Shown: one piece after another, positions 27,369-50,583 of the stretch
How positions within the stretch are numbered: the first letter of the stretch is position 1
Layout of the letters: the number at the start of each line of letters is the position of its first letter
Assembly (NCBI RefSeq): GCF_024347435.1
Contig: NZ_AP025481.1
Span: forward strand, 1,178,001 to 1,242,000
Direction of reading: 5' to 3'
DNA length: 64,000 nt
DNA from: Vibrio cyclitrophicus
GTDB lineage: Bacteria > Pseudomonadota > Gammaproteobacteria > Enterobacterales > Vibrionaceae
The notes under the pieces: generated by a model
What the model was told of the DNA's origin: nothing
Seen by the model: the letters and a program-made list of their open reading frames with translations, nothing else
The model's database searches: none
Made by a program: the position numbers and the translations under genes

Positions 27369-27398
27369 CAAAAAAGCCCCGCTATAGGGGCGGGGAAA
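27369..27398 (-). terminator. Rho-independent terminator of the malate-synthase-domain gene
   Basis: On the minus strand CCCCGC pairs with GCGGGG and is followed by CTTTTTTG. Confidence 0.85.
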
Positions 27399-27480: not shown

Positions 27481-28053
27481 TTAGAGCGCGTAGCAAAAAC
27501 CTAAGTTATAGTCTTCGCCATTCTTCGCCGTGAACTCTTTGTCTTCGCTCGATGCGTTCGAGCGACCGCTTTCATCGCCTTTCACCAGGCTCACCCAGTG
27601 ACGGATTCCTGAAGAGCGGCTAACCTCTGTTTGGCCAAATGTAGTACATGTTTCTAGCTGGATATCTTGAATATCAACCAATTCCAAGTGGCCAGTACCT
27701 TTACGAGCACCGATTGTCACTTCAACGTGTGTACCGCTTTCGTCACGGAATAATATTGCTGAAGGCTTAGATTTATCACCTGTGTAAGCCACAAAGTGTT
27801 TAGCGCGTTTCAGGCCTGTGTGTTCACCGTTTTTGAAGTAAACCTGAACATGTCGATAATCAATCTCGTAGCTCACCACGTCTTCGTGTGAACCCGCCTC
27901 AAGAGGAAATAGAGTATCAAGCAACTGTTTCGCCATTCTCTGCTTTTCGAGTTGCTTGTCTGCTTTCACCATTTCAACGGCAAAGACAGCTTCAGCAATA
28001 AATGTTGAATGGTTTCTGTGAAGTTCTGTTTTGTCTAGTGTCAGCATATTCAT
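27481..28053 (-). CDS. Orphan protein homologous to an internal domain of malate synthase G
   Basis: A 190-residue protein of unknown function. By eye, residues about 40-185 align along their whole length with residues about 170-335 of the full malate synthase G encoded at 45334-47517. Matched pairs include PLEAGSHEDVVSYEI with [31 protein letters not shown] with [16 protein letters not shown], and HWVSLVKGD with NWLGLMKGD. The catalytic Arg/Glu/Asp residues of the enzyme lie outside this block, so it cannot be a malate synthase. No signal peptide. It has its own terminator and an upstream GGTCAA-N9-TTGACC palindrome. It could be a ligand-binding or regulatory relic of the non-catalytic domain. 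Confidence 0.7.
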   Translation of the reverse strand: MNMLTLDKTELHRNHSTFIAEAVFAVEMVKADKQLEKQRMAKQLLDTLFPLEAGSHEDVVSYEIDYRHVQVYFKNGEHTGLKRAKHFVAYTGDKSKPSAILFRDESGTHVEVTIGARKGTGHLELVDIQDIQLETCTTFGQTEVSRSSGIRHWVSLVKGDESGRSNASSEDKEFTAKNGEDYNLGFCYAL

Positions 28054-28108: not shown

Positions 28109-28288
28109 CTTTTCAAAATTGTTCTTTACTGTGTTGCTTCCATGTATTTCATACTACTTGTATTTTCTAAACAATTTCACAACAAAAATTTCACAGTGTG
28201 AATTTTACTAAATTGCTTTTTTACACAAACCGGTATTTCGAGTCCTCAGCCTTTAACTGATGGGGTTGAGGGCTCAGTAGAAACACTT

Positions 28289-31305: not shown

Positions 31306-32307
31306 TTACTTTCTACCTAGTAACTCAAGAACGTCGTCTAGCTTGTCTTTGCCTCCAATGCTTGAATAGAACTTAGGCCAAACTGACTTAGTGACTTTGC
31401 TGATCCACTCTTGCTCGTTGTCTGCAGGGTCAGTGAAGACCATGCCTTTTGCTTGCAGTTCTTCACGGATCTTGTTTTCAGTATTTTCTAAGTATGCAAA
31501 GCTGTGCTCTGTCGCTTCCTGACCCGCTTCAAGAATGATTTTTTGCATTTCAGGCGTCTGTTGTTGGAAGACTGTTTCACTGACGATTAGCGGCTCAAGA
31601 GAGAAGATATAACGAAGGTTTGTGACGTACTTTTGTACTTCATTGAACTTCATCGCATGCACAGTGATGTATGGGTTGTCTTGTCCATCAACCACACCTT
31701 GCTGCAGGCCAGTAAATGTTTCTGACCATGCCATTGGTGTTGGGTTTACGCCCCATGCTTGGTAGGAAGCAATCATGATTTCGTTACGAGGAACACGAAT
31801 CACTAGTCCTTTTAGATCCGCTGGTGAAGCCACTGATTTTTTAGAGTTAGTCAGAACCCTAAAACCAGAATAAGCCCAGCCAACGATACGAACGCCAGCA
31901 TCACGAATGGTGTTATCGACAAGGTCTTGACCCACTTGGCCTTGAGTTAATAGCACCGCTTCTTCTGCACTTTGAATGACATAAGGCATGGTCAATAGAC
32001 CAACCGTTGGAGAGAAAGGCGTCACGTTGTTGATCGCCAATACTGAGAAGTCGAGAAGGCCGATTGCCGCGTCGTTAACGGTGTCTTGCTCGTTGCCCAA
32101 TTGACCATTCGGGAACAGGTCGATTTTGACTTTGCCGTCTGTTTTTTGCTCCATCAATTCAGAAAATGAGGTCGCTAATTCCCACTGAGTACCACCAGCA
32201 GCATCTCCGATAGCCATTTTAAAATTTGCTGCTGCCGCGGTATGAGATAGCATCGCTGTTGCTACAATTGTGACGCCAGCAATAATTTTATTTTTAATCA
32301 ATTTCAT
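31306..32307 (-). CDS. tauK: TRAP transporter substrate-binding protein (DctP/TauK type)
   Basis: A periplasmic solute receptor that delivers substrate to the TRAP permease. The signal peptide ends near SHTAAAA. The DctP fold is recognised from FKMAIGDAAGGTQWELA, LGNEQDTVNDAAIGLLDF, LKGLVIRVPRNEIMIASYQAWG and GVVDGQDNPYITVHAMKF; the conserved Arg in VIRVPRN binds acid groups of the ligand. Position directly after tauY suggests taurine or a related sulfonate as ligand. Confidence 0.9.
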   Translation of the reverse strand: MKLIKNKIIAGVTIVATAMLSHTAAAANFKMAIGDAAGGTQWELATSFSELMEQKTDGKVKIDLFPNGQLGNEQDTVNDAAIGLLDFSVLAINNVTPFSPTVGLLTMPYVIQSAEEAVLLTQGQVGQDLVDNTIRDAGVRIVGWAYSGFRVLTNSKKSVASPADLKGLVIRVPRNEIMIASYQAWGVNPTPMAWSETFTGLQQGVVDGQDNPYITVHAMKFNEVQKYVTNLRYIFSLEPLIVSETVFQQQTPEMQKIILEAGQEATEHSFAYLENTENKIREELQAKGMVFTDPADNEQEWISKVTKSVWPKFYSSIGGKDKLDDVLELLGRK

Positions 32308-32423
32308 AGTCTTAACCTTTCATATCATACAGACTTCCTGCCTGTACTTTGCTCACAAGGTGACCTGGTACAACTTTCCTGGTCGTAGTTCTATTTCCCT
32401 ATTTTGGAAACAATGTTCGAGTA

Positions 32424-33890
32424 CTAAAGCACTTCATCTTTTAGCGAATACCACTGATAAAGGAACTGTTGCCCTACTCTTCGAAATGGTGCAAACATCT
32501 CAGATTCCACCACTTCCCTCACGTTGGGGAACGGAAGTTTTGATTCAAATATTGGCAAGTCAAGCTTATGACCTTCACCTGCGATCCACTGAGCGAGGCG
32601 CTTGCCTGCTTGAGCGGAGTACATCACACCATTGCCGCCATACCCTAGTGCGTAGAATATGGATTGCTTTGGATTCGGCTGATAGATTCTTGGCATCATG
32701 TCGTGGCTAACATCTACCCACCCCCACCATGAATAATCGATTTTGATCTGATCGAGAGAAGGGAATTTTCGAGTTAAATCCGCTCTCAACATGTCTTCGT
32801 ATTTCTTGTCAGGTGCATTCTTGCCACTGATGGCACTGCGTGTACCGATCTGCACTCGGTTATCGGGTAACAAACGGTAGTAATGACGCAAAATTCTGGT
32901 ATCAGTAATCACCTGATTAGTTTTGAAGTTACACGCAGCGATTTCGTCTTGAGTTAACGGACGCGTCACCATCGAGTTAGAAAGTACGGGTAATAAGCGA
33001 TTCTTAAGCTCTGAATGCAAACCTTGGCTGGTGTATCCACCGGTACAAACACCGACAGAACGAGCCTTAACCACACCACCAGGCGTTTTCAGGTAATGCA
33101 CACCGTTGCGAGTTTCCCATCCCATCACAGGGCTTGCTGGGTGAACTTTTACGCCGAGTGCTCGCGCCTTTCTTAGATAACCAAACGCCAGTTTCCCTGC
33201 ATGGATGCCAATACCTTCTGGCTCATGCATTGCGCCTGCTGCTTCTTGGTCGCCGACGTAATCACGCTTTACGGTTTCCGCATCTAAGATCTGCGCATCG
33301 TAATCAAACGTGTCACGCAGCAACTTGGCTTCTTTCTCGAGTGTTGCCATCACTTTTGGACGGTGAGCAACATATAAGTGGCCACCCGGCTGCGGGTCAC
33401 AATCAATGTCTTTGATTAGAGACTTAAATGTGTTCATGCCATCGACGCATTCGCGGTGCATTTTTAGCGCGGTTTCTAATCCCCAGCGTTCAATCCACTG
33501 AGAACGCTTCAAACGTCCTGACGCACACTGAGCCTGACCACCATTTCGGGTACTGCAGCCCCAACTCATACGGTTAGCTTCAATCACAATCGCTTTAATG
33601 CCGTACATTTCAGCAAGGTGTATCGCAGTACTTAGGCCTGTGTAGCCTGAACCGATTATCGCCACATCGACATCCATATCCGATGTAATTGGGCCATCAT
33701 CTTCAGGTGGCACGCCTGCGGTATCTACCCAATAAGTCGGGGCGTATTCCTTGCCGTGACCTGGGCTCTTGTCTTTAAGTGGGTCGTATTTTGGATCGTA
33801 TCTTTCTTTTGCTTGGGTACTTTCTTGTGCTCGGGTGCTTTTCACCTTTGGTGGCACATCGGCTGCCGGTTGTTCCATTACTAAACTCAT
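32424..33890 (-). CDS. tauY: Taurine dehydrogenase large subunit-like FAD oxidoreductase
   Basis: Predicted to oxidise taurine to sulfoacetaldehyde and ammonia, passing electrons to the respiratory chain. The sequence is a D-amino-acid-oxidase-type flavoprotein of 488 residues. The FAD-binding motif is GSGYTGLSTAIHL starting at residue 80, followed by VIEANRMSWGCSTRNGG. An atypical 70-residue N-terminal extension, hydrophilic and charged, precedes the Rossmann fold. The assignment to TauY rests on context: an NTF2-like partner immediately upstream, a TRAP transporter immediately downstream, and xsc and pta nearby. Alternatives from the same fold are other amine or amino-acid oxidases. Confidence 0.8.
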   Translation of the reverse strand: MSLVMEQPAADVPPKVKSTRAQESTQAKERYDPKYDPLKDKSPGHGKEYAPTYWVDTAGVPPEDDGPITSDMDVDVAIIGSGYTGLSTAIHLAEMYGIKAIVIEANRMSWGCSTRNGGQAQCASGRLKRSQWIERWGLETALKMHRECVDGMNTFKSLIKDIDCDPQPGGHLYVAHRPKVMATLEKEAKLLRDTFDYDAQILDAETVKRDYVGDQEAAGAMHEPEGIGIHAGKLAFGYLRKARALGVKVHPASPVMGWETRNGVHYLKTPGGVVKARSVGVCTGGYTSQGLHSELKNRLLPVLSNSMVTRPLTQDEIAACNFKTNQVITDTRILRHYYRLLPDNRVQIGTRSAISGKNAPDKKYEDMLRADLTRKFPSLDQIKIDYSWWGWVDVSHDMMPRIYQPNPKQSIFYALGYGGNGVMYSAQAGKRLAQWIAGEGHKLDLPIFESKLPFPNVREVVESEMFAPFRRVGQQFLYQWYSLKDEVL

Positions 33891-33938
33891 AATTCGACTC
33901 TCCTAGTCATAACACGTGAACGGGTTGTGGTTTCGTGT

Positions 33939-34376
33939 CTAGCTCTTGGGAGTGTTGTTAGGAGTCAAAAGAGGTCGTGTTTTACGGAAGGCATTTTTTA
34001 CGCTGATTTTTCCCTCTTTCAGGGTAAACACATCAACCATACGAGCTTCGATGACGGTGCCATCAGGGTTAGTCGCAGAGAACGTTGATTCGCTTACCGC
34101 GCGGTCGCCACACACAAAGTGGACAGGGTCGCTCCAGGCTGCATCTGGAAAGTTCTGCCAAACCAATTCAAAGCTATTACGAACGGCTTCGTACCCTTCG
34201 ATAGTGTTTCCAAGTTCGCCTTCTCCTGCCACGGTGTGGAAGACACAGTCTTCGGTCATAAACGACATTAGCGCTTCAATATCATGGTTATTCCATGCAT
34301 CACTAAAAGACTGTAAAAAGGCGGTGTCGACTTGGTTTTCCAGCACGAATGTCGCTGCATTGGTTTGCATATTCAT
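33939..34376 (-). CDS. tauX: Taurine dehydrogenase small subunit-like protein (SnoaL/NTF2 fold)
   Basis: A 145-residue SnoaL-like, NTF2-fold protein: FLQSFSDAWNNHDIEALMSFMTEDCVFHTV is the usual cone-shaped opening, followed by GYEAVRNSFELVW and ARMVDVFTLKEGKI. Proteins of this type are annotated as the small subunit (TauX) of taurine dehydrogenase, encoded next to TauY. Here it ends 48 bases before tauY, in the same orientation. The AT-rich gap upstream (34377-34640) contains one copy of the ATTAG-TGTT-CTGAT palindrome described separately. Confidence 0.75.
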   Translation of the reverse strand: MNMQTNAATFVLENQVDTAFLQSFSDAWNNHDIEALMSFMTEDCVFHTVAGEGELGNTIEGYEAVRNSFELVWQNFPDAAWSDPVHFVCGDRAVSESTFSATNPDGTVIEARMVDVFTLKEGKISVKNAFRKTRPLLTPNNTPKS

Positions 34377-34558
34377 ATTCCAGAATCCTTTATGTTTTCG
34401 TTATTGGTTTAAATTTCAGTAGCTTTGCGCCACTTTTTTATTAGAGTGTTTAAACTAGATCTGTGAAAATTTAACAACTTGATAACAAGATTCGCCACTC
34501 TAACTTCGAGTTACTTTATAAACAATCTTTAAGCTCACAGATTTCATCTTTTTATAAA

Positions 34559-34575
34559 TTAATTAGTGTTCTGAT
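34559..34575. repeat. Copy 1 of the TTAATTAGTGTTCTRAT repeat
   Basis: TTAATTAGTGTTCTGAT, with a second copy at 35681-35697 that differs at one position. The core ATTAG-TGTT-CTRAT is an inverted repeat. The two copies bracket the FRG-domain gene. Confidence 0.6.
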
Positions 34576-34640
34576 TTTATTTATCTCGTAATCACTAGAT
34601 TTATATTAGGTCTAAATAAAATCATTAGAAATATTAGACT

Positions 34641-35468
34641 TTAGTCGAAATCAAAATCTTGATGGTACTTTCGGCCATACTGCTCAAGCTGGCGATCATG
34701 AGTATTAACTTGTAACTCGATATTACCCTCGCCTTTATTCATTGCTTGATTGCTGTCTATATGGGCTTCATTTTTCAAATCAGCCAGTTTCTCTTCAATA
34801 TATTCTGTCGGTTCATTTAAAACATTCATGGAGATTAATTCCTTTATCAGGTTTACTTTCGCTGATGGAAGAATATGAACGGATACTAGACCGTTTGAAT
34901 ATTCTTTTTCATCGTACAAAGGCTGAATGGCATCATTGCCACCTTCCTTAAATGGGTGAATGGAATACCACTTATCTTTTCGTTGCTCTTGCTGATCACA
35001 ATCAGCCACATTGAATATCTGAGTCCTATTGAGGTCACATGGTGAGTTGAAAACACTAACTTTATGATAATCAATGGCTTTAATAATATTGATACAGTCT
35101 TTACTTTGGCTATGACATACAGACCACAGCGCATTAATCAGGTTATCTGTCCATTCAAGTAAACGGGTTGGAAACCCCTGTTTCTTGGCTAAACACATCA
35201 GTAACCAATCGTTTATCTCGTGTGCACTCAACGAATGCCCACCATAAACTCTCACGCTCGAGAGAAGCTCTTGTTCGAAACGGCGAATATTCTTTCGATT
35301 TGATCGGCCTAAGCTCGGCATCAAGTTATTATTTTCATAATCACACACGTTATAAATCAAATCACGATGTCCACTACACTCAGCAATGAGTGAATCGATT
35401 ATTTCATACAGCTCTTCGAGTGAGCTTATATAACGTTTATTTTTCACAACATTCATACAATAAGTCAT
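34641..35468 (-). CDS. FRG-domain protein
   Basis: A 275-residue protein with an FRG domain, named for a Phe-Arg-Gly motif and often found in mobile or defence-related genes. The diagnostic second block is clear: AKKQGFPTRLLEWTDNLINALW (family pattern A.HHG.PTRLLDWT.NPL.AL). The first block reads NLMPSLGRSNRKN and lacks a preceding Phe-Arg-Gly. The C-terminal half contains HILPSAKVNLIKEL and an acidic tail. It lies between xsc and tauX on their strand but is flanked by AT-rich gaps and a repeated palindrome, and has no evident role in taurine use, so it looks like an inserted gene. No ribosome site is visible at the ATG. Confidence 0.75.
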   Translation of the reverse strand: MTYCMNVVKNKRYISSLEELYEIIDSLIAECSGHRDLIYNVCDYENNNLMPSLGRSNRKNIRRFEQELLSSVRVYGGHSLSAHEINDWLLMCLAKKQGFPTRLLEWTDNLINALWSVCHSQSKDCINIIKAIDYHKVSVFNSPCDLNRTQIFNVADCDQQEQRKDKWYSIHPFKEGGNDAIQPLYDEKEYSNGLVSVHILPSAKVNLIKELISMNVLNEPTEYIEEKLADLKNEAHIDSNQAMNKGEGNIELQVNTHDRQLEQYGRKYHQDFDFD

Positions 35469-35680
35469 TTAATTTATATTCGGTAAAGTTAAAGTATTAA
35501 TAATCACGTTAATCAATTGTTCAATTGTTCAATTGGTATAGTTGTAATTATTGAAAAATGATAATAGGTATATATCTTCGTCAAAGATGACCATTTATGG
35601 ATCCATTAGTTAAGGATCGAACAATAATAATGAGTGACAAAATTTATATAGCTAGAACCACTTATGTACCGATGGAACAT

Positions 35681-35697
35681 TTAATTAGTGTTCTAAT
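35681..35697. repeat. Copy 2 of the TTAATTAGTGTTCTRAT repeat
   Basis: TTAATTAGTGTTCTAAT, containing the perfect inverted repeat ATTAG-TGTT-CTAAT. It sits in the 350-base AT-rich gap 35469-35818. That gap also holds three tandem TCAATTGT-like units near 35516-35537 and no recognised gene. Confidence 0.6.
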
Positions 35698-35818
35698 GTT
35701 TAAGTAGAAATTATTGAACTAAGCGTTTACGTTCTTCACTTAAGCACTTTGCCAATACCCGTTAATATTGCCCGACCACGTTCTTTATAATGCGGTGGCC
35801 GGACAAACTTCCTATGAC

Positions 35819-37630
35819 TTATACGTAGTCTTTATATTTATCTAGGAAACGAACCGGTGTTGATAGTGCATCTCGGCGGAACGGGTCGCCCAATTCCTGA
35901 GTACACATGATTTCAATGATGGTTGTTTTGCCTTCGTTCATTTGCATGTCGATAGCTTTTTGCAGAGTTGGGCCTACATCTTCTAGCTTATCAACTGTGA
36001 TACCTTCAGCGCCCATTGCTCGTGCGATCTCTGCAAAGCTTTGGTTCTCAAGTTCACCAGCAACAAAGCGTCGGTTGTAGAAGTCGACTTGGTTCTTCTT
36101 CTCAGCACCCCATTGACGGTTGTGGAATACCACGGCTGTCACTGGAATGTTATGGCGAACACATGTCATGGTTTCCATCAAGCTCATGCCCCACGCACCA
36201 TCGCCAGCATAAGAAATAGCGGGACGATGAGGTGCCGCTGCTTTCGCACCAATGATGGTCGGGAACGCATAACCACAGTTACCGAAACTCATTGCAGCAA
36301 AGAAGCTACGTGGTTTTTCAAAGCGTAAGTAGCTGTTTGCCACTGAGTTGATGTTACCGATGTCCGTCGAGACCATTACGTCTTCAGGCATCGCTTTTTC
36401 TAGCTCACGCAATACTTGGCGTGGGTGTAGATATTCGCCACCAGAGAACGGAGTCTCGTGTGAGTTTTCTTCAATCATATCTAAGCTGAACGAGTCACGT
36501 TCGTGTGTCCACTCATCAAGCTCTTTTTCCCACAGTGCTTTCTCTGTTGCGACTGTATCTTGACGAGCGCCTTTGTTGTCATCACACAACAGTGCGCGGC
36601 CTTCCAATCTTTCAGATAAAGCAACCGCAGCTGCTTTCGCATCGCCACAGATACCAACAGAAATCTTCTTAACCAAACCTAGCATCTTGTTGTCTGCATC
36701 AATCTGAATGATTTTCGCGTTCTTCGGCCAGTAGTCCATGCCATGTTGAGGCAAGGTACCAAATGGACCAAGACGTGTACCCAACGCGATAACCACATCC
36801 GCTTGAGCCATCAATTTCATTGCTGCTTTCGAACCTTGGTAGCCTAGAGGGCCACACCATAATGGGTGACTCGCAGGGAAAGAGTCATTGTGCAGGTAGC
36901 TGTTCACTACAGGTGCACCTAGTCTTTCTGCTAATGCTGCACACTCTTGAACTGCATCTGCCATTACCACACCGCCACCAGAAATGATGACTGGGAATTT
37001 TGCTTCAGCAATCAGGTCTGCTGCTTCATTCAGAGACTTCTCGCCACCTGGACCACGATCTAAACGCGCGGGTTTCGGGATCTCGGTTTGAGTTTCACCG
37101 TAGAAATAGTCACGTGGAATATTCAGTTGAGTTGGACCCATCTCGCTCATTGCGCGGTCAAAACATCGGCCTGTGTATTCTGCCATACGGTCTGGGTGCG
37201 TTACGTGTCCTTGATACTTAGTAAACTCTTGGAACATTGGAAGCTGGTTACACTCTTGGAAACCACCTAAGCCCATTGTTTTTGTACCTGTCTCTGGCGT
37301 CACAATGACGACCGGGCTATGTGCCCAGAACGCCGCTGCAATCGCAGTCACACAGTTACTAATACCCGGGCCGTTTTGCCCGATTACTACGCCGTGGCGA
37401 CCAGATACACGAGAGTAACCATCTGCCATGTGAGCAGCACCTTGCTCGTGTACCACTGGGACCAATCGAATGCCAGCAGGAGCAAAGATATCCATTGCGT
37501 CCATAAATGCTGACCCCATGATGCCGAACATGTCGGTAACATCATTAGCAACCATAGTTTCAACGAACGCTTCTGATGGTGTCATTGTTACTGTGCCGGA
37601 AACAACCGTACGTTTTTCTTGCTCGCTCAT
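35819..37630 (-). CDS. xsc: Sulfoacetaldehyde acetyltransferase
   Basis: A thiamine-diphosphate enzyme that splits sulfoacetaldehyde with phosphate into acetyl phosphate and sulfite, the key desulfonation step of taurine catabolism. The 603-residue length and the opening MTPSEAFVETMVANDVTDMFG are characteristic. The ThDP-binding motif is YAGDGAWGMSLMETMT through VVFHN, and the family-specific region NGPGISNCVTAIAAAFWAHSPVV is present. It is transcribed away from the CobS/CobT-like pair. The 265-base divergent region holds GAATGAATTG inverted repeats that may bind the local regulator. Confidence 0.95.
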   Translation of the reverse strand: MSEQEKRTVVSGTVTMTPSEAFVETMVANDVTDMFGIMGSAFMDAMDIFAPAGIRLVPVVHEQGAAHMADGYSRVSGRHGVVIGQNGPGISNCVTAIAAAFWAHSPVVIVTPETGTKTMGLGGFQECNQLPMFQEFTKYQGHVTHPDRMAEYTGRCFDRAMSEMGPTQLNIPRDYFYGETQTEIPKPARLDRGPGGEKSLNEAADLIAEAKFPVIISGGGVVMADAVQECAALAERLGAPVVNSYLHNDSFPASHPLWCGPLGYQGSKAAMKLMAQADVVIALGTRLGPFGTLPQHGMDYWPKNAKIIQIDADNKMLGLVKKISVGICGDAKAAAVALSERLEGRALLCDDNKGARQDTVATEKALWEKELDEWTHERDSFSLDMIEENSHETPFSGGEYLHPRQVLRELEKAMPEDVMVSTDIGNINSVANSYLRFEKPRSFFAAMSFGNCGYAFPTIIGAKAAAPHRPAISYAGDGAWGMSLMETMTCVRHNIPVTAVVFHNRQWGAEKKNQVDFYNRRFVAGELENQSFAEIARAMGAEGITVDKLEDVGPTLQKAIDMQMNEGKTTIIEIMCTQELGDPFRRDALSTPVRFLDKYKDYV

Positions 37631-37670
37631 TCTTCCATTCTCCTTGAGTTAACCAAAATTTCATTTTTCG

Positions 37671-37761
37671 GAATGAATTGTCTCTTTTTCGAATTCATTT
37701 TCACCTTAGTAGTAGAATTTTTGCACGTCAACTTTTTATATTAAATTGGAACAATTCATTC
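37671..37761. promoter_or_regulatory. Inverted GAATGAATTG repeats between xsc and cobS-like gene
   Basis: GAATGAATTG (37671-37680) and its exact inverse CAATTCATTC (37752-37761) flank a third related site GAATTCATTT (37691-37700). The right-hand copy is part of TTGGAACAATTCATTC, whose TGGAACAATT core recurs upstream of pta/iclR. This suggests shared operators for the IclR protein encoded at 42760. Confidence 0.5.
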
Positions 37762-37895
37762 TAATTAATAAAACTGGATCACATTATTGGTAGTTTTTCG
37801 TACAAAAAGTGCCATTAACTTAAGAGGAGCTGTTAATAATCGATGTCATATCGCGATAGCAGCGACAAGTGATGAGCTATATAGAGGGGAATATA

Positions 37896-38876
37896 ATGAA
37901 AGAGGCGGAATTGATACCAACGCAACCAGTAAGTGTGAGAGAACGCTTTGGGATCGACAGCAATCTAACCGTGATGGCATTTGAACATGCGGGCGAATAT
38001 GTGCCGAAAGTCGACCCTAATTACTGTTTTGACCCTGAAGTGACGCTGGCTATATTGGCGGGGTTCACCTCCAATCGTCGCACACTGATTCAAGGCACAC
38101 ATGGGACGGGCAAGTCGTCTCACATTGAGCAAATTGCCGCGAGATTGAACTGGCCATGCTTGAGGATCAACCTAGACGGACACCTAAGTCGCTTGGATTT
38201 CATAGGTAAAGACAGCATCGCCATTAAAGACGGAATGCAGGTGACTGAGTTTAAAGAAGGCATTCTTCCTCAGAGCATTCAACAACCCATCGCACTGGTG
38301 TTAGATGAGTACGACGCTGGTCGTCCTGACGTGATGTTTGTGATTCAACAACTATTAGAGCAGGACGGGAAATACACCTCTTTAGAACAAAATCGAGTGA
38401 TCACGCCTCACCCTTCTTTTCGCTTGTTTGCTACCTGCAACACGCTTGGCTTAGGTAACTTCTCCGGTTTGTATTCGGGCACTCAAGTGCTTAACCACAG
38501 TCAATTAGATAGATGGAACATCATCGCTACGCTCAACTATTTAGACCCACAACATGAAACCAAGATCGTGTTATCCAAGCTTCCAAATCTGAATGATGAA
38601 AGTGGCCGCCAACTGGTTGAGAAAATGATCGCCACCGCAGGATTAACGCGTAACGGGTTTCGGGCTGGCGACCTTTCAACGGTGATGTCTCCGCGAACGG
38701 TGCTCACTTGGGCTGAAAATATCCAAATATTCGACGATGTTGCGACGGCATTTAGGCTTTCATTCTTAAATCGCTGCGAAGACGAAGAAAAAGAACTGGT
38801 TAGCGAATACTATTTCCGTTGCTTTGGTGAAGATTTAGAAACGCCTACTCAAAACTATTCCCACTCGGAGTCGTAA
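37896..38876 (+). CDS. CobS-like AAA+ ATPase (MoxR type)
   Basis: A AAA+ ATPase very like the CobS subunit of aerobic cobaltochelatase: VSVRERFGIDSN, then FDPEVTLAILAGFTSNRR. Walker A is GTHGTGKS at residues 67-74, Walker B is ALVLDEYDAGRPDVMFVIQ with D137/E138, and sensor 1 is FATCNT. The start chosen is ATG at 37896, preceded by GAGGGG at good spacing. It is followed after three bases by a CobT-like VWA gene. No CobN subunit or other cobalamin gene is present nearby, and the pair sits among taurine genes, so a chaperone or insertion role for a taurine enzyme is possible. The biochemical target is unknown. Confidence 0.85.
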   Translation: MKEAELIPTQPVSVRERFGIDSNLTVMAFEHAGEYVPKVDPNYCFDPEVTLAILAGFTSNRRTLIQGTHGTGKSSHIEQIAARLNWPCLRINLDGHLSRLDFIGKDSIAIKDGMQVTEFKEGILPQSIQQPIALVLDEYDAGRPDVMFVIQQLLEQDGKYTSLEQNRVITPHPSFRLFATCNTLGLGNFSGLYSGTQVLNHSQLDRWNIIATLNYLDPQHETKIVLSKLPNLNDESGRQLVEKMIATAGLTRNGFRAGDLSTVMSPRTVLTWAENIQIFDDVATAFRLSFLNRCEDEEKELVSEYYFRCFGEDLETPTQNYSHSES

Positions 38877-38879
38877 ACC

Positions 38880-40598
38880 ATGGCCAATGTTTCTTCCCAG
38901 CAGAAAAAGATCCTCGATCTTGGCGTGTCTGTCGCCAGAGCGATCAGCGGTGAGTTGAGTCTGAATTATCGGGGAGAACGTCTCTATAAAGGCAATAGCC
39001 CCTGTTATTATCAGTCTGCACATACTAACGATCTCACCTTTGTGTCTCGCCATGAGTTGAAAAACAGCAAACTTTCGATGCAAGGCAAGATCGATTCATC
39101 AGCATTACGACTCTTACTTTCAGATGCTGATCTTCACTATTCATTACGACCGAAAAACGAAGTCGAACGTCTGTTATATGATTTCTGCGAACAAGTACGA
39201 ATTGAATCGCAAGTTCCATCTTATTTAAGAGGTGTAACCACCAGTATTCAGTTCAATTTTGCGTATTGGAGCGACCAATATCATCAGAATGGCTTCACCG
39301 AATCACGAATCGGCATGTTGCTGTTTACACTGATGCAAGTCATCCACACCCGCTTAACCGGTGTTCCAGTTTCGGAGCCGATTGCTGAAACCATTGAATC
39401 GACTCGCGCCGGCATCGTGCCTACTTTTGGGCACAGCCTGAAGCGCTTAAAGCAACATAGAACCGACCAACAACAGTTTGCTCACTGCGCCAATGAGCTT
39501 GCAGCCCTTGCACAAGAGCTAATAACCCAAGAACAAGAGAGCGATAACTCGCCCACGCCAACAGTTGAAGAAGACATTAAGATCCTTGCACAACTTGCCT
39601 TAATTGTGGATGGTGACATTCAAGATGAAGACGTCGATACCGACATCACAGGCAGTAGCAAGGTATTCGAGCTGTCGGGCGCCAATTATCAGGTCTTTAA
39701 TTCAGAATTGGATCAAGTCATCGCGGCAGACAAACTCGTCAGGCGCGCCCTATTACTCGAACTGAGACAAAAGCTCACCGATGACATCATGGCGAGACAA
39801 GTCAACACTCGCCGTTTAGCCGCGATGCTCACTCGCTTTGTTGCCACTCCTCAAACGAACCGACGTCAGGGTCATTTAGAAGAAGGCATTGTTAACGCCA
39901 CTACCATCACCAAGCTCATCACATCGCCATTAGATCGCACTGTCTTTTATCAACCAGACATTGGCGCATCTCATCAATGTGCCATCACGTTTTTGATGGA
40001 CTGCTCAGGCTCAATGCAAAAGCACAGTCACAAGCTAAGCCTACTGATGGATACAATTCTCAAATCCGTTGGGCTGGCCAGCATTCCTTTTGAGATTATT
40101 GGCTTCACCACCAATAACTGGAACGGTGGCAAGGTTTATCGACAGTGGCTCAAGCAAGGTCAACCGAAACACCCAGGCCGCTTGAACGAAGTTCGACATA
40201 TCGTATTTAAGGATTTTGATACCCATTGGAGACGCTCTCGCCTTGGCATTGCCAGCCTTCGTAAAGCAGACATCTTTAAAGAAGGGATTGATAGCGAAGC
40301 GGTGCAATTCGCTAGTCAGCGGTTGCAACAGCACAATGCACAAAGAAAGGTTTTAATCGTGTTCTCAGACGGCTGTCCGATGGATACCGCCACCAGCACC
40401 GCCAACGATCAGTTCTATTTAGATAACCATCTCAAACAAGTCATTGAACGTGAGTCGACCAAAAACGGTATCGAAATTCACGGTGTGGGGATGGGTGTCG
40501 ATTTAAGTCCGTATTACCGCAGTAACATCACTTTAGATGTGCAGGAGAGCTGTTTGTTTGGGTTATCTAGGAACATCTTCGAGATGCTAAAGCGTTAG
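38880..40598 (+). CDS. CobT-like VWA-domain protein
   Basis: Partner of the CobS-like ATPase. The 572-residue protein has a CobT-like N-terminal region, an acidic middle segment (EEDIKILAQLALIVDGDIQDEDVD) and a C-terminal von Willebrand A domain. The metal site is DCSGS at residues 374-378 and IVFSDGCPMDTAT later. The final HGVGMGVDLSPYYR resembles the CobT end. AAA/VWA pairs of this type remodel or activate large enzymes, for example cobaltochelatase, NorQ/NorD and CbbQ/CbbO. It follows cobS by three bases and converges with the TauE-type gene. Confidence 0.85.
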   Translation: MANVSSQQKKILDLGVSVARAISGELSLNYRGERLYKGNSPCYYQSAHTNDLTFVSRHELKNSKLSMQGKIDSSALRLLLSDADLHYSLRPKNEVERLLYDFCEQVRIESQVPSYLRGVTTSIQFNFAYWSDQYHQNGFTESRIGMLLFTLMQVIHTRLTGVPVSEPIAETIESTRAGIVPTFGHSLKRLKQHRTDQQQFAHCANELAALAQELITQEQESDNSPTPTVEEDIKILAQLALIVDGDIQDEDVDTDITGSSKVFELSGANYQVFNSELDQVIAADKLVRRALLLELRQKLTDDIMARQVNTRRLAAMLTRFVATPQTNRRQGHLEEGIVNATTITKLITSPLDRTVFYQPDIGASHQCAITFLMDCSGSMQKHSHKLSLLMDTILKSVGLASIPFEIIGFTTNNWNGGKVYRQWLKQGQPKHPGRLNEVRHIVFKDFDTHWRRSRLGIASLRKADIFKEGIDSEAVQFASQRLQQHNAQRKVLIVFSDGCPMDTATSTANDQFYLDNHLKQVIERESTKNGIEIHGVGMGVDLSPYYRSNITLDVQESCLFGLSRNIFEMLKR

Positions 40599-40698
40599 GA
40601 GATATAAGTCGTGAGCAGTGAAGTATCGGCTAGCAGACCGCTAGCCTTTTATCGGAATGTTCTTAATAGGTAGCAAGCAACTGATATATAAAAAGTAG

Positions 40699-41466
40699 CT
40701 AAGAGACAGCAAGCAACGACCATGCAGAGGCCGCCATCAAATATCCACCAATCAACATCAGCACAATAAACACCAGCTTTCTGAGTTGATCATTGGACAG
40801 CGGCGGTGGGAAGCGCCGAGCAAACATAGTAACAAGTGCCACCAAGGGGACAGCGATTGCGGATAGCCACAGTATGCTCGCTTCCATGTCACCAGCAGCG
40901 TAGACATTGACAGTACGGGACATCGACGTACAAGCGAACACCATCAGCAGTGTGCTTCGCACCAGATCGAGCGTAAAAGGTTGTCGATAGAGATGATAAA
41001 CAATCGGTGGACCTGCCATCCCAAACAACCCACCCGCTAACCCAGAGCTAAAGCCTGAGACAAGGAAAGATACGGTTGCCGAACGATCCTTTCTGGTTTT
41101 AGGTTTGAACATAAAACTCACACCTGCGAATAGCACCATCGCACCCAATAGTCCTCGGAGAATATGCGTTGCCGAATCGCTCAACTCGTCCAGCAAGAAC
41201 ACCCCCATCGATACGCCGGGAATAATACCGATCACTAACACCACCAGAATCTTGAGCTCCCCAAGTAATGGTTTACCCATCAAAGCAACCAAGCAATTGA
41301 ACAAGGTCACAATACTCACCACTGCGGCTATAACGGGTAAAGAAACCAGATTAAGGCTGACCGTCAAACCAATCACGATGATACCGAGGCCAAAACCCGT
41401 CACAGTTTGGAAGTAGGTACCCACCGCAATAGTGGCAAGAATGGCGAGTAAAACAGGTAACTCCAT
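40699..41466 (-). CDS. tauE: TauE/SafE-family sulfite exporter-like membrane protein
   Basis: A predicted anion exporter. The 255-residue protein has about eight hydrophobic segments and the TauE/SafE repeats: TGFGLGIIVIGLTVSLNLVSL in the first half and VSGFSSGLAGGLFGMAGPPIVYHLY in the second. Next to xsc and pta, its likely job is to export the toxic sulfite released by Xsc. It is 66 bases downstream of pta on the same strand, suggesting a pta-tauE operon. Confidence 0.85.
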   Translation of the reverse strand: MELPVLLAILATIAVGTYFQTVTGFGLGIIVIGLTVSLNLVSLPVIAAVVSIVTLFNCLVALMGKPLLGELKILVVLVIGIIPGVSMGVFLLDELSDSATHILRGLLGAMVLFAGVSFMFKPKTRKDRSATVSFLVSGFSSGLAGGLFGMAGPPIVYHLYRQPFTLDLVRSTLLMVFACTSMSRTVNVYAAGDMEASILWLSAIAVPLVALVTMFARRFPPPLSNDQLRKLVFIVLMLIGGYLMAASAWSLLAVS

Positions 41467-41532
41467 TAGCTATCCTAATTAGGTTGTTTTGGGTTTGATT
41501 TGAATGTGAGTACTAGATACTAGAGTGAGATG

Positions 41533-42606
41533 TTAATACCGGAACTCAAATGCCGACTCTTCTTTTTCTTCAACATCAGCTTCAGTATCAGCCTTAGAGC
41601 TAGACACTTTCTCTTGCTGCGCTTGTACGGCAGTCACCGCAATTACGTTAAAGATATCTTCCGCGCTACACCCTCTGGATAAGTCATTGGCAGGCTGATT
41701 CAATCCTTGTAGTAACGGGCCAATCGCGACCGCGCCACCTAACCTTTCTGCGAGCTTATAGCCTATGTTCCCCGCTTCTAAATTAGGGAATATCAATACG
41801 TTAGATTGGCCTTTTACTTCTGAATCGGGCAGCTTTTTTGCGGCAATTTCAGTCACAATCGCGGCATCGAGTTGAACATCCTGATCGACAGCTATTCCGG
41901 GACAGCGTTGCTTCACTAACTGAGCAGCATTGCGAACCTTATCGACCGATTCGTGTTTCGCACTGCCATTGGTCGAAAACGACAACATTGCCACTTTAGG
42001 TTCTTCCATCAGCAGCGTTTGAGCACTGTTTGATGCCGCCACTGCAATAGAGGCCAACTCCGTTTCATTGGGGTTAATCACCAAACCACAATCACTGAAA
42101 ATCATGCCGCCTTTAAGATTATGGAAAGGCTCACACAACATCATCAGAAAGAAGCTGGATACCAATTCACTGTCTGGCGCAGGCCCAATAATCTGCAGCG
42201 CCGCTCGTACTACATCAGACGTGGTATAAACCGCACCATTAACCGTACCGTCGACCAGTCCTTCCCTCACCATCAAATTGGCAAAAATCAGTGGGTCTTT
42301 GACCTTCTCCAATGCATCTTCATAAGTCATGCCTTTGGCTTTTCTTAGCTCATAGAGCCGTTCAGCCAACACAGCTTTGAGTGCTGATGTTTGTGGTGAC
42401 ACAATATGAATGCCGGCGAGATTAATGTGGTTCAACTGTGCCGCTTCGATAATCGCCTTTTCATCGCCGACTAGCGTGATGTAAGCAAGCTGTTTATCTA
42501 TCGCCAATCGCGCCGCTTTGAGTACACGAGGGTCTTCTGCTTCACTCAAAACCACTCGCTTACGATCTAAGTGAGCCTTATCAATAATCCGTTCAATCGC
42601 CTTCAT
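41533..42606 (-). CDS. pta: Phosphate acetyltransferase
   Basis: Converts acetyl phosphate from Xsc into acetyl-CoA. The short, single-domain Pta type is recognised from VVLSEAEDPRVLKAARL, DGTVNGAVYTTSDVVRAALQIIG, SSFFLMML, DCGLVINPNETELASIA and the terminal NVLIFPNLEAGNIGYKLAERLGG. A hydrophilic tail rich in Ser/Glu/Lys (about 25 residues, ending EFRY) follows the enzyme domain and is unusual. The start chosen is ATG at 42606 (MKAIER), with GGAA upstream; four codons earlier another ATG lacks a ribosome site. Transcribed divergently from the iclR gene. Confidence 0.92.
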   Translation of the reverse strand: MKAIERIIDKAHLDRKRVVLSEAEDPRVLKAARLAIDKQLAYITLVGDEKAIIEAAQLNHINLAGIHIVSPQTSALKAVLAERLYELRKAKGMTYEDALEKVKDPLIFANLMVREGLVDGTVNGAVYTTSDVVRAALQIIGPAPDSELVSSFFLMMLCEPFHNLKGGMIFSDCGLVINPNETELASIAVAASNSAQTLLMEEPKVAMLSFSTNGSAKHESVDKVRNAAQLVKQRCPGIAVDQDVQLDAAIVTEIAAKKLPDSEVKGQSNVLIFPNLEAGNIGYKLAERLGGAVAIGPLLQGLNQPANDLSRGCSAEDIFNVIAVTAVQAQQEKVSSSKADTEADVEEKEESAFEFRY

Positions 42607-42626
42607 CTTAAATTCCATTTATTGAG

Positions 42627-45333: not shown

Positions 45334-47517
45334 TTATGCAAGTGCTTTTAACTTCAATCGCATCGCATGTAGCACTGGCTCTGTGTAACCACTTGGTTGG
45401 GCGCAACCTTCGAATACCAACTGACAAGCTGCTGAAAATGCAATGCTGTTTTCAAAGTTAGGAGCCATATTACGGTAGCTAGGGTCGCCAGCGTTTTGCT
45501 CATCAACCACTGCTGCCATACGCTTCATAGTTTTCATTACTTGGGCTTCATCGCAAATACCGTGACGTAACCAGTTAGCGATGTGTTGGCTTGAAATACG
45601 CAATGTTGCGCGATCTTCCATCAAACCTACATCGTTAATATCAGGTACTTTAGAGCACCCTACGCCTTGGTCAATCCAACGAACCACGTAACCTAGAATA
45701 CCTTGCGTGTTGTTATCCAATTCGTTTTGGATATCTTGAGCTGTTAGCTTTTGATTACCTAATAGCGGAATAGTAAGGATATCGTCTACATTGGCTCTCA
45801 CTCGCTCACGAAGCTCTTTCTGGCGGCTTGGTACACTCACTTTGTGATAGTGCAGAGCATGCAAAGTCGCAGCAGTTGGAGAAGGTACCCAAGCCGTATT
45901 CGCGCCAGCTTGTGGGTGTCCGATTTTCGCGTCCATCATCTTCGCCATATTATCTGGCTCTGGCCACATACCTTTACCGATTTGAGCTTTACCTTGCAGG
46001 CCACAAGCTAGGCCAAGATCAACGTTTTGATCTTCGTATGCGCCAATCCAAGTCATGGTTTTCAGCTGTGTTTTAGGCGCAAATGGCCCAGCTTCCATAC
46101 TCGTGTGAATCTCATCACCCGTTCGGTCTAAGAAACCGGTATTAATGAACACAACACGATCTTTAGCCGCACGAATACATTCTTTCAGGTTGACCGAAGT
46201 ACGACGCTCTTCATCCATAATGCCAACTTTGATGGTGTAGCGGTCTAAACCTAAAGCATCTTCAATGCGACCAAACAACTCATTGGTAAACGCCACTTCT
46301 TCAGGGCCATGCATCTTAGGTTTTACAATGTTGATACTGTTTGCGGTCGAGTTTTGGTAAGCGCTATTGCCTTTTAAATCATGTATCGCGATTAGCGAGG
46401 TGATCATACCATCCATAATGCCTTCAGGTACTTCATTACCTTCGGCGTCAATGATCGCAGGGTTGGTCATTAGGTGACCCACGTTACGTATAAATAACAT
46501 GCTGCGGCCTTTGAGCGAGATCTCACCGCCAGTGACACTGGTGTATTGGCGATCTGGATTCAAACTACGAACGATGGTTTTGCCGTTTTTCTCTAGCGAC
46601 TCTTTCAGGTCACCTTTCATCAAACCTAACCAGTTGCTATAGGCAAGCGCTTTATCTTCACCATCAACCGCAGCAACCGAGTCTTCACAATCCATAATGG
46701 TCGTCAAGGCAGCTTCGACTAATACATCTTTAATACCAGCAACATCAACGCTACCAATCGGTGCGCTCGGGTCAATTTGAATTTCGATATGCAGATTATT
46801 GTGTTTAAGCAGAATGCACGAAGGGGAACTTGCGTCACCTTGATAGCCAATGAACTGGTCGCTATCAATTAGAGTGACTTCCTCACCGTTATCCAGTGTC
46901 GCTATCAACTTATTACCGATACTAGCGTTACTGATGCTGTATTTGGTTACGTCTTTATGAGAAACGCCATTTAGTGGCGCAGCATCATCAAGGAACTCAC
47001 GAGCATAAGTCACGACTTTAGCGCCACGCACAGGGTTAAAGCTTCCACCTTTTTCCGCGCCGTCACTTTCGCTGATCACATCGGTGCCGTAGAGCGCATC
47101 ATATAAGCTGCCCCAACGCGCGTTGGCTGCGTTAAGTGCAAAACGTGCGTTCATAATTGGCACTACAAGCTGTGGCCCTGCCTGGGTGGCGATTTCTGGT
47201 TCGACATTCGCTGTTGTCACTTGAAAATCATCGCCTTCAGGGACTAGGTAGCCAATCTGTTGTAAGAACTGTTTGTACTCTGCCGCATCTAGCGTTTGTC
47301 CAGCACGCTCTTGGTGCCAAACATCAATTTGGTGTTGAAGGTCTTCACGCTTAATAAGCAACGCGCGGTTTTTTGGAGCCAAGTCAGCAAGGATGGCTGC
47401 AAAAGATTGCCAAAAGTCCTCGGCGATAATGCCCGTTCCAGGAATGATCTGCTCATTAATTAATTGGTAGAGGGTGCTATCAATGTTCAAGCTTCCCTGT
47501 TGAATACGACTGCTCAT
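45334..47517 (-). CDS. glcB: Malate synthase G
   Basis: Condenses glyoxylate with acetyl-CoA to malate, the second step of the glyoxylate shunt. The 727-residue length is that of the monomeric G isoform. Domains in order: N-terminal helical clasp, TIM barrel with inserted alpha/beta domain (about residues 170-335), catalytic Arg in [13 protein letters not shown], Glu in [15 protein letters not shown], and C-terminal helical plug with [23 protein letters not shown]. It is transcribed toward the taurine cluster and separated from isocitrate lyase by a LysR gene, as in V. cholerae. Confidence 0.95.
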
Positions 47518-47691: not shown

Positions 47692-48645
47692 TTATCCCGT
47701 CACTCCACTCTCTATCTCGTTGGCAACACTTTTAATTAAGCGGCGCATCCATTGGTGGTCGGGATTGGTTTGCAATAATGGACTCCACGCCATTTTTACC
47801 TCAAAGGGCTCAATCGCAAATGGCGCAGGTTTGATCAACAACCTAGGATTATTGCGCTGCAATTGTGCAGCTTTGGTTGGAATGGTAAGAATCAAATTTT
47901 TCTGTTGAGCGAACAAAATCGCCGACAAGTAGTGTCGAGTAAACACCGTAATATTTCGTGTTTTACCAATACGCATTAGTGCTTCATCTATCCAACCCAG
48001 CTTTTGTGCTTCACTCGGATTGATCCCGACTCCGGTTCCCATTCCGGTTTTACTCACCCAAATATGTTGTGCCTTTAAATAAGACAAAATATCAAAGTTG
48101 TCGGCTATTGGATTGTCACAGCTAAATAAGCAAGAAAACCCGTCGTGCCAAAGGCTCATCTGGTGAAACGACTGTGGAATATCGTCAAAACGATTGATAA
48201 TAATATCAACAGTTCCTTGCTCTACATCCTGATAACTCACGTCACTTGGCGTCATGATATCCAGTCGTATTTTCGGCGCGATCTCACTCAACTTTTTTAG
48301 CAATGGTTGAATGATGGTCGATTCAGCATAATCACTCGCCATAATACGAAACACACGTTCACTGTCTTCCGCACTAAACTCAGTGGTCGGTTGTAGCGTC
48401 TTCTCTACATTGGCCAGTATGTTGCGAATCAGCGGCTGTAATTTGTGCGCTCGCTCGGTAGGAACCATTCCTTCACTTGTTCTCACCAGCAGTGGGTCTT
48501 CAAATAAATCCCTCAGTCGGCGCAGTCCATTACTCATGGCTGGTTGAGTAATTCCTAGCTGATTTGCCGCACGAGTTACGTTTCTTTCACGTAACAACAT
48601 GTCTAAATACACAAGTAAATTAAGGTCTATACGAGCAATATTCAT
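47692..48645 (-). CDS. LysR-family transcriptional regulator
   Basis: A 317-residue LysR protein. The N-terminal HTH is LNLLVYLDMLLRERNVTRAANQLGI, then TQPAMSNGLRRLRDLFEDPLLVR, in the NodD/LeuO-like subgroup. The effector domain starts near residue 92. It lies between malate synthase (same strand, 174 bases downstream) and isocitrate lyase (divergent), so control of the glyoxylate shunt is the natural guess. The divergent 130-base gap 48646-48775 is AT-rich and could hold its operator. Confidence 0.9.
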   Translation of the reverse strand: MNIARIDLNLLVYLDMLLRERNVTRAANQLGITQPAMSNGLRRLRDLFEDPLLVRTSEGMVPTERAHKLQPLIRNILANVEKTLQPTTEFSAEDSERVFRIMASDYAESTIIQPLLKKLSEIAPKIRLDIMTPSDVSYQDVEQGTVDIIINRFDDIPQSFHQMSLWHDGFSCLFSCDNPIADNFDILSYLKAQHIWVSKTGMGTGVGINPSEAQKLGWIDEALMRIGKTRNITVFTRHYLSAILFAQQKNLILTIPTKAAQLQRNNPRLLIKPAPFAIEPFEVKMAWSPLLQTNPDHQWMRRLIKSVANEIESGVTG

Positions 48646-48775: not shown

Positions 48776-50374
48776 ATGTCGCAAATTACACAAGATATCG
48801 AAATGATAGAAGTTGCAAAAAGCGCTGCAGGTGCACCATGGGATGCAATTAACCCTGAATCTGCTGCTCGTATGCGAGCTCAAAACAAATTCAAAACAGG
48901 TCTGGATATCGCGCAATACACGGCAGATATCATGCGTGCGGATATGGCGGCTTACGACGAAGACAGCTCTCAATACACTCAGTCTTTGGGTTGCTGGCAT
49001 GGTTTCATCGGCCAACAGAAGCTGATCTCTATTAAGAAGCACTTTGATGGCAAGACAGACCGTCGTTACCTATACCTTTCAGGTTGGATGGTAGCAGCAC
49101 TTCGCTCTGACTTCGGTCCACTTCCTGACCAATCAATGCATGAGAAAACGTCGGTTGCAGGTCTAGTAGAAGAGCTATATACCTTCCTACGCCAAGCTGA
49201 TGCACGTGAGTTGGGCGGGTTATTCCGTCAACTAGACGCAGCACGTGAAGCCGGCGATGTTAATCAACAGGATCTTATCCAAGACAAAATCGACAACCAC
49301 GTGACACACGTAGTACCAATCATTGCCGATATCGATGCTGGTTTCGGTAACGCAGAAGCAACTTACCTAATGGCTAAGCAGATGATTGAAGCCGGTGCGT
49401 GTTGTCTACAAATCGAAAACCAAGTAGCTGATGAGAAACAGTGTGGACACCAAGACGGAAAAGTAACGGTTCCACACGCTGACTTCCACGCGAAACTTCG
49501 CGCACTTCGTTACGCATTCCTTGAGCTGGGTATCGACAACGGCATCATTGTTGCTCGTACCGATTCACAAGGTGCTGGTCTAACAAAAGAAATCGCAGTA
49601 GTGAAAGAGCCGGGCGACCAAGGTGACATCTACAACTCATATCTAGATGTTGAAGAGATTGATGTTGCTGATATGGCTGAAGGTGATGTTTGCTTCAACC
49701 GCGACGGCAAGCTGGTTCGTCCTAAGCGTCTGCCTTCAGGCTTATACCAATTCCGTGAAGGTACAGGTGAAGACCGTTGTGTATTTGACTGTATTGAAGC
49801 AATCAACGCGGGTGCTGACCTACTTTGGATTGAGACAGAGAAACCACACATTGGTCAAATCAAAGAGATGATGGATGGCGTACGTGAAGTGCATCCTAAC
49901 GCTAAACTGGTATACAACAACTCACCATCATTCAACTGGACGTTAAACTTCCGTCAGCAAGCGTACGATGCAATGGTAGCAGCAGGTAAAGATGTATCAG
50001 CTTACGACCGTGCAAACTTAATGAGTGCGGAATACGACGAAACGGAACTGTCTGCAAGCGCTGACGAGAAGATTCGTACATTCCAAGCGGACGCATCTCG
50101 CGAAGCGGGTATCTTCCACCACTTGATTACTCTGCCGACTTACCACACAGCTGCACTGTCTACCGACAACCTTGCAAAAGAGTACTTCGGTGACCAAGGC
50201 ATGTTGGGCTACGTTGCAAATGTTCAGCGTAAAGAGATTCGCCAAGGTATCGCATGTGTTAAGCACCAAAATATGTCTGGTTCAGATATGGGCGATGACC
50301 ACAAAGAATACTTTGCTGGTGAAAATGCATTGAAAGCAGCAGGTGAAGCGAATACATCAAATCAATTTGATTAA
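48776..50374 (+). CDS. aceA: Isocitrate lyase
   Basis: Cleaves isocitrate to glyoxylate and succinate, the first step of the glyoxylate shunt. The protein is the long, 532-residue form. The catalytic loop is EKQCGHQDGKVTVPHADF with Cys and His as in the family's KKCGH, and the metal site is seen in IIADIDAGFGNAEATYLMAKQMIEAGACCLQIENQ. Together with malate synthase it lets acetyl-CoA, including that formed by Xsc and Pta, serve as carbon source. A hairpin follows the stop. Confidence 0.96.
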   Translation: MSQITQDIEMIEVAKSAAGAPWDAINPESAARMRAQNKFKTGLDIAQYTADIMRADMAAYDEDSSQYTQSLGCWHGFIGQQKLISIKKHFDGKTDRRYLYLSGWMVAALRSDFGPLPDQSMHEKTSVAGLVEELYTFLRQADARELGGLFRQLDAAREAGDVNQQDLIQDKIDNHVTHVVPIIADIDAGFGNAEATYLMAKQMIEAGACCLQIENQVADEKQCGHQDGKVTVPHADFHAKLRALRYAFLELGIDNGIIVARTDSQGAGLTKEIAVVKEPGDQGDIYNSYLDVEEIDVADMAEGDVCFNRDGKLVRPKRLPSGLYQFREGTGEDRCVFDCIEAINAGADLLWIETEKPHIGQIKEMMDGVREVHPNAKLVYNNSPSFNWTLNFRQQAYDAMVAAGKDVSAYDRANLMSAEYDETELSASADEKIRTFQADASREAGIFHHLITLPTYHTAALSTDNLAKEYFGDQGMLGYVANVQRKEIRQGIACVKHQNMSGSDMGDDHKEYFAGENALKAAGEANTSNQFD

Positions 50375-50447: not shown

Positions 50448-50583
50448 GAAATGAAGATTGTATTTATTATAAGCTTCATCTCAAAGCCTCAGATTTGTGT
50501 TCCACACCACGGTTAACTGAACAACTTCTGTTTAAGCTAATTACATTCCCGTTCGTTGACTTTCCTATTTATTGAGAGTGCCT

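Follow-up and report, generated by a model that had tools for sequence, protein, structure and literature searches.

Why does a Vibrio genome keep a free-standing piece of malate synthase G (MSG) that lacks the means of catalysis? The 64,000-nucleotide stretch of Vibrio cyclitrophicus DNA analysed here (hereafter the window, to which all coordinates refer) contains a 190-residue open reading frame at 27481..28053 (- strand), which a first-pass annotation took to be an internal, non-catalytic MSG domain standing by itself. The profile search and fold comparison that it proposed bear this out. The protein scores 265 bits against NF006511 / PRK08951 (curated cut-off 173) with residues 1–189 of 190 covered, and it has the fold of MSG domain III, the alpha/beta insertion domain (about residues 138–335 of MSG). 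In alignment it is a truncated MSG. The four motifs chosen, after E. coli MSG, as those of the catalytic residues (Arg, Glu, Asp and Asp) all lie outside the retained part and, like the TIM barrel, are absent from the frame; all four are present in the full-length MSG of the window and in 22 of 22 Vibrio MSGs linked to a DUF3612 gene (L129, L131–L151). The stand-alone frame is thus not that of the enzyme malate synthase.

The protein family is already catalogued, as NF006511 / PRK08951 ‘malate synthase’ and, for the domain, as Pfam PF20658 MSG_insertion. The window protein matches NF006511 along its full length and above the cut-off; however, the family name implies an enzyme, whereas the protein has no TIM barrel, no C-terminal domain and none of the tested catalytic motifs. 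It resembles domain III of E. coli MSG (1d8c) in fold and sequence, with the second segment running to about residue 335, but differs from it in being free-standing, in having a shortened barrel strand between the two segments, and in an N-terminal helix that is conserved in stand-alone proteins only. In M. tuberculosis GlcB, part of one published account places domain III at residues 135–265 (PMC5207166). A literature search for PRK08951, PF20658, PF12268 and MSG_insertion found no mention of any of them. The terminator that the annotation assigned to the gene corresponds to a hairpin with a T run resembling an intrinsic terminator at 27376..27395 (- strand), one of 3 such sites in the region against 1.0 expected.

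A free-standing copy is real but is not peculiar to the window. A protein search returned 125 homologues; among the 120 listed, those with a named organism are from Vibrio except for one from Gallaecimonas, and the homologues that have a name carry labels such as malate synthase, malate synthase G or hypothetical protein. The survey of Vibrio genomes that the annotation had called for finds NF006511 above its cut-off in 192 of 227. The genome of the window is the only one above the cut-off in a sample of 321 gammaproteobacterial genomes, and the 35 such genomes among 101 Vibrionaceae are confined to the genus of the window and one other. The genome of the window itself has two stand-alones (C2:261914 and the window copy) in addition to an MSG.

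The stand-alone is under strong purifying selection. Restricted to pairs with dS of 0.05–1.5, the median dN/dS is 0.032 in the clade of the window (106 pairs) and 0.025 (4 pairs), 0.06 (2 pairs) and 0.043 (11 pairs) in three further groups. The gene also appears in a published expression study: the V. vulnificus gene named glcB (VV2_1647) is a stand-alone, because its published primers encode LGCHKG and LETRTT, peptides that both occur in P0079, the 206-residue V. vulnificus protein. Excerpts of that study, the only report that a literature search for VV2_1647 returned, describe glcB as elevated in stationary phase together with aceA and aceB, and GlcB protein as lower in a stressosome mutant in which AceA and AceB are little changed (PMC10014275). 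That the gene is a functionless, decaying relic of MSG, as its truncated alignment might suggest, is therefore very improbable: dN/dS is low in all four groups, most Vibrio genomes retain the gene, extra copies keep the upstream site described below, and a protein level is reported in V. vulnificus.

The window contains an obvious candidate for the source of the domain. A full-length MSG gene (45334..47517, - strand) lies 17 kb away, downstream of a gene for a LysR-family regulator (47692..48645, - strand) and beside its divergent neighbour and pathway partner, a PRK06498-type isocitrate lyase (ICL; 48776..50374, + strand; 1025.6 bits). The first-pass annotation had implied this origin, to which proximity and 28% sequence similarity would point. 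We built a tree from 154 domain III columns, rooted with 10 other MSG rows. Forcing the stand-alones into a clade with LysR-linked MSGs of the window type lowers lnL by 43 and is rejected under this model by the AU test (p-AU 0.00036), so that the chance of the stand-alone being a fragment of the neighbouring MSG is close to nil; judged by its domain III sequence, that MSG is a distant relative and not the parent. In the same tree the stand-alones form a clade (support 100/97) with nine MSGs that are linked to DUF3612 and with a single MSG of G470, which shows them inside or beside the DUF3612-linked MSGs and groups them with that lineage.

Some side features of the surroundings are worth recording. 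What separates MSG from the stand-alone in the window and in closely related loci is a cluster that includes Xsc, Pta and a gene for a TRAP solute-binding protein; in L015 and L016 the stand-alone lies directly 3′ of MSG, and in L006, L010 and L013 a single gene intervenes. The window cluster (31306–42618) encodes the TRAP solute-binding protein, a DAO-family FAD oxidoreductase, Xsc (sulfoacetaldehyde acetyltransferase), a TauE-like exporter and Pta, and looks like a route for degrading taurine to acetyl-CoA; within it lies a gene for an FRG-domain protein (34641–35468; Pfam 3.9e-9). Beside the isocitrate lyase, a 196-residue frame (50572–51162) has relatives in six other compared loci and no Pfam or NCBIfam match.

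The window copy has moved. By identity it is nearest to copies in the splendidus-group loci L001–L013, most of which the descent tree leaves out (L077 is also absent from the trees), whereas the tree places it not with the canonical copy that the same genome carries but with those of V. fortis, V. tubiashii T33 and V. mediterranei, so that the move was an old duplication or a transfer. The V. mediterranei copy in this grouping lies beside a DUF3612 gene. The stand-alones of Pseudoalteromonas and Gallaecimonas join those of Vibrio (support 99/96). A 188-residue stand-alone in G393, on a long branch (2.3–2.4), groups instead with the MSG linked to DUF3612 in the same genome, which suggests that the stand-alone arose at least twice. 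For a 137-residue protein in G484, also on a long branch, a tree that places it outside the stand-alones and DUF3612-linked MSGs is retained (p-AU 0.264); because its position is unsure we do not count it as a further origin.

The constant neighbour of this lineage is a regulator gene. In the loci read, the canonical stand-alone is divergent to a gene for a protein with HTH_3, M78 (IrrE-like) and DUF3612 domains. An NF006511 match, whether stand-alone or MSG, is present in 217 of the 227 Vibrio genomes, DUF3612 is present in the identical 217, and the identical 10 have neither. For 25 of these 217 genomes the score stays below the cut-off: 22 of the matches are full-length MSG frames (725–776 residues) and three are divergent stand-alones. 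In the second Vibrionaceae genus, all 14 genomes with either match have NF006511 and DUF3612 within about 2 kb by coordinates. A 162-residue stand-alone labelled ‘malate synthase’ adjoins a DUF3612 gene in Pseudoalteromonas xiamenensis, Gallaecimonas mangrovi has both proteins, and DUF3612 is also found in some Shewanella.

We examined 51 divergent DUF3612 promoters, which are chosen fetched loci rather than a random draw (L088, where DUF3612 is near a contig end, was excluded, and L089 was dropped as a duplicate of L155). The gene facing DUF3612 is a stand-alone in 27, in the order DUF3612(-), stand-alone(+), and a full MSG in 22, in the order DUF3612(-), MSG(+), ICL(+); the other two, both beyond the Vibrionaceae, face ICL-MSG (G393) and malate synthase A-ICL (G243). 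Because stand-alone and MSG share the slot beside DUF3612, the catalytic part would have been lost in place. Replacement is not the sole course, since G115 has both a DUF3612-linked full MSG and a separate stand-alone with its own upstream site; the 195 Vibrio genomes that have DUF3612 and lie outside the set of 22 with a full MSG are therefore not all replacements. In G470 an MSG-ICL pair occurs with DUF3612 on a different contig. In G484, likewise beyond the Vibrionaceae, DUF3612 faces a run of three genes (L087 9797–14250) for the 137-residue stand-alone, an isocitrate lyase and a monomeric isocitrate dehydrogenase, so that both branches of the isocitrate node adjoin the stand-alone.

The nearest known counterparts of the DUF3612 protein are RamB and PrpR (ScfR), which, according to passages of two papers, control acetate and propionate metabolism (PMC10370305, PMC6765138). 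As far as those passages go, the likeness lies in the HTH and IrrE-like M78 domains, both present in the L042 protein, in conserved C-terminal cysteines and in a gene context that adjoins glyoxylate-shunt operons; the third domain differs, being DUF3612. The RamB model scores 16.9 bits on the DUF3612 protein, over the HTH part only, against a cut-off of 700. A DUF3612 profile search of PDB sequences returns HTH proteins only, and an AF2 model (mean pLDDT 54) is too poor for structural comparison. Literature searches found no mention of DUF3612, and nothing on VCA0148 together with malate synthase. Five other regulators, none DUF3612-like, are given for aceBA in the portion seen of a Shewanella regulon reconstruction (PMC3223726), although DUF3612 occurs in that genus, which counts against the proposed role of DUF3612 in the shunt.

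As the first-pass annotation had noted, the gene has an upstream site: a conserved three-repeat element, (A/T)GTRWAATT-N5-TGTRWAATT-N5-TGTGAAATT, at 28170..28212 (- strand), 116 bp before the start codon, which we predict to be the DUF3612 operator (position weight matrix score 60.5 bits, no mismatches to the pattern). The repeats TGTRWAATT-N5-TGTRWAATT-N5-TGTGAAATT, or close variants, occur at all 51 divergent DUF3612 promoters: 45 are found by the strict pattern, five by a matrix made from those 45 (52–71 bits), and the remaining one (G243) has only a weak two-unit form with two mismatches. The element also lies 5′ of the stand-alone in 42 of 42 loci (L001–L042, some of which also fed the site matrix) with a score of at least 44 bits, and this holds for tandem copies and for those remote from DUF3612. 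At the G393 stand-alone, apparently of separate origin, the element scores 56.5 bits, and at that of Pseudoalteromonas it shows no mismatch. Across the 227 Vibrio genomes a full site is present in 216, against 7 matches in total for the reversed-pattern control; the 11 exceptions are the ten without DUF3612 and G006, where a spacer is 1 bp shorter. A further paralogue group (L028–L034 and L041) also carries the site, and in 7 of these 8 loci the paralogue comes after a gene whose L034 representative has matches to radical SAM families.

Such sites also precede the MSG-ICL shunt operons of full-enzyme genomes. When up to 3 mismatches are allowed, the 5.28-Mb genome of the window has two full sites, each at a stand-alone, against 0 for the reversed pattern, and the ICL, LysR and MSG genes of the window have none; that genome thus gives no sign of co-regulation with the shunt. 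The link to acetyl-CoA/glyoxylate metabolism proposed by the first-pass annotation thus gains support from context, and what the evidence favours, rather than the suggested effector binding, is membership of the window stand-alone, by its upstream site, in a predicted DUF3612 regulon.

Which malate synthase accompanies the stand-alone varies. A high-scoring aceB (E < 1e-240) is found in none of the 22 DUF3612-MSG genomes and in 116 of the 195 other DUF3612 genomes. Of the remaining 79, 75 match NF006511 at least twice, with a full-length frame as the additional match in each of the 16 genomes for which individual matches are listed, and four (G002, G093, G095 and G099) have neither a high-scoring aceB nor a second match. 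The stand-alone occurs alongside both ICL types and alongside malate synthase A or G, so that no single enzyme is its constant partner.

A shorter form of the site occurs at aceB. A high-scoring aceB is present in 118 genomes; in the 30 best-scoring of these loci, not a random draw, a two-unit site lies upstream of the gene in 29 (17 with no mismatch, 2 with one and 10 with two, and differently positioned in L175), and the 30th locus is cut by a contig end; the 43-bp three-repeat matrix finds nothing above 14 bits in the same 30 loci, so that the aceB site is the shorter one. In the four loci read fully it lies about 385–435 bp before the likely start, with an isocitrate lyase-like frame (by eye) 3′ of aceB. 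The two-repeat pattern was chosen after stray sites had been seen. In 24 chosen genomes (matches placed by coordinates, or by fetched sequence for G029, G030 and G115; reversed-pattern control 1 match), all 33 matches with 0–1 mismatch are at stand-alones, DUF3612 promoters or aceB. The other 15 of the 48 have two mismatches: those of G054 and G091 are upstream of aceB, and those of G484 (two), G243, G594 (one) and G115 (two) are at a stand-alone or DUF3612 promoter. Seven are elsewhere. We judge two of them, overlapping the start of a small frame (G000) and inside one (G009), to be chance. That of G030 (L207) lies between a 311-residue frame and a CBS-domain frame, and strays with three mismatches in G052 (L211) and G114 (L212) share this CBS setting, after a LysR gene (LysR and CBS names assigned by eye); no aceB lies within the 3.5 kb fetched at these three loci, and the degenerate sites may be what remains of an aceBA locus since lost. 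The matches of G115 C2, G131 and G594 (two at one place), fetched and read, could be attributed to no setting. In the 227-genome scan, among the sites listed (to G116), the strays of G004, G020, G096, G104, G106 and G108 are upstream of aceB by coordinates, and one three-mismatch match in G050 is attributed to no gene. From these sites we predict that the stand-alone is co-regulated with the shunt, in agreement with one published qPCR study.

Conserved features of the protein hint at how it may work. Residues conserved in stand-alones only comprise F18, I19, A20, V23, A25, V26 and E27 of the N-terminal helix, together with Q38, L44, D65, Y66, Y72, G119, H152 and S155. With the barrel gone the helix would be exposed, which suggests protein contact. 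A partner might be the DUF3612 protein itself, with domain III, formerly within MSG and now by itself, reporting its own abundance or a bound metabolite in an autoregulatory loop on the shunt. Nothing accompanies the stand-alone more constantly than the DUF3612 gene and the site, which holds in P. xiamenensis too, and G. mangrovi has both proteins; however, DUF3612 may simply be needed to express the stand-alone, so that co-presence does not discriminate, and in the genome of the window, where full sites occur only at stand-alones, such a loop would have no other output. We consider this feedback role rather unlikely. The finding that no gene other than a stand-alone is a full target there suggests instead that the protein acts itself and does not only feed back on DUF3612, in which case we prefer, with modest confidence, contact with a shunt enzyme. 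Less likely still, with perhaps a slim chance, the free domain is a sensor or buffer for a shunt metabolite that it binds, such as glyoxylate or a CoA ester; the fold is kept and the predicted regulon is shunt-linked, but the four tested MSG catalytic motifs lie outside the retained part.

The reading that we prefer, and to which we give an even chance, is that the stand-alone is the domain III remnant of a DUF3612-linked MSG, switched by DUF3612 together with the shunt, and that it tunes the acetyl-CoA/isocitrate branch point by protein contact. A DUF3612-linked MSG gene would have shed its catalytic remainder in place and kept domain III. DUF3612 would bind the three-repeat site, as the position and conservation of the site suggest, and would switch the shunt genes and the stand-alone jointly when acetyl-CoA needs to be assimilated. 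Least certain are the last steps, in which the stand-alone would use the now exposed side that once faced the barrel, together with its N-terminal FIAEAVFAVE helix, to bind most likely a shunt enzyme and so adjust the branch point. More broadly, and with odds that we put somewhat short of even, domain III may be a regulatory module of the glyoxylate shunt that was set free at least twice together with its DUF3612 switch, the former enzyme now serving only as a dedicated regulator of its pathway.

The stand-alone offers a concrete handle on what domain III does inside MSG. For most of the genus, pathogens included, the analysis provides a likely regulator of the glyoxylate shunt, DUF3612, with a predicted binding site. 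It also corrects the misleading annotation ‘malate synthase’ or ‘glcB’, which has already been used in a published expression study (PMC10014275), and provides a clear example of an enzyme cut down to a non-catalytic domain and then retained.
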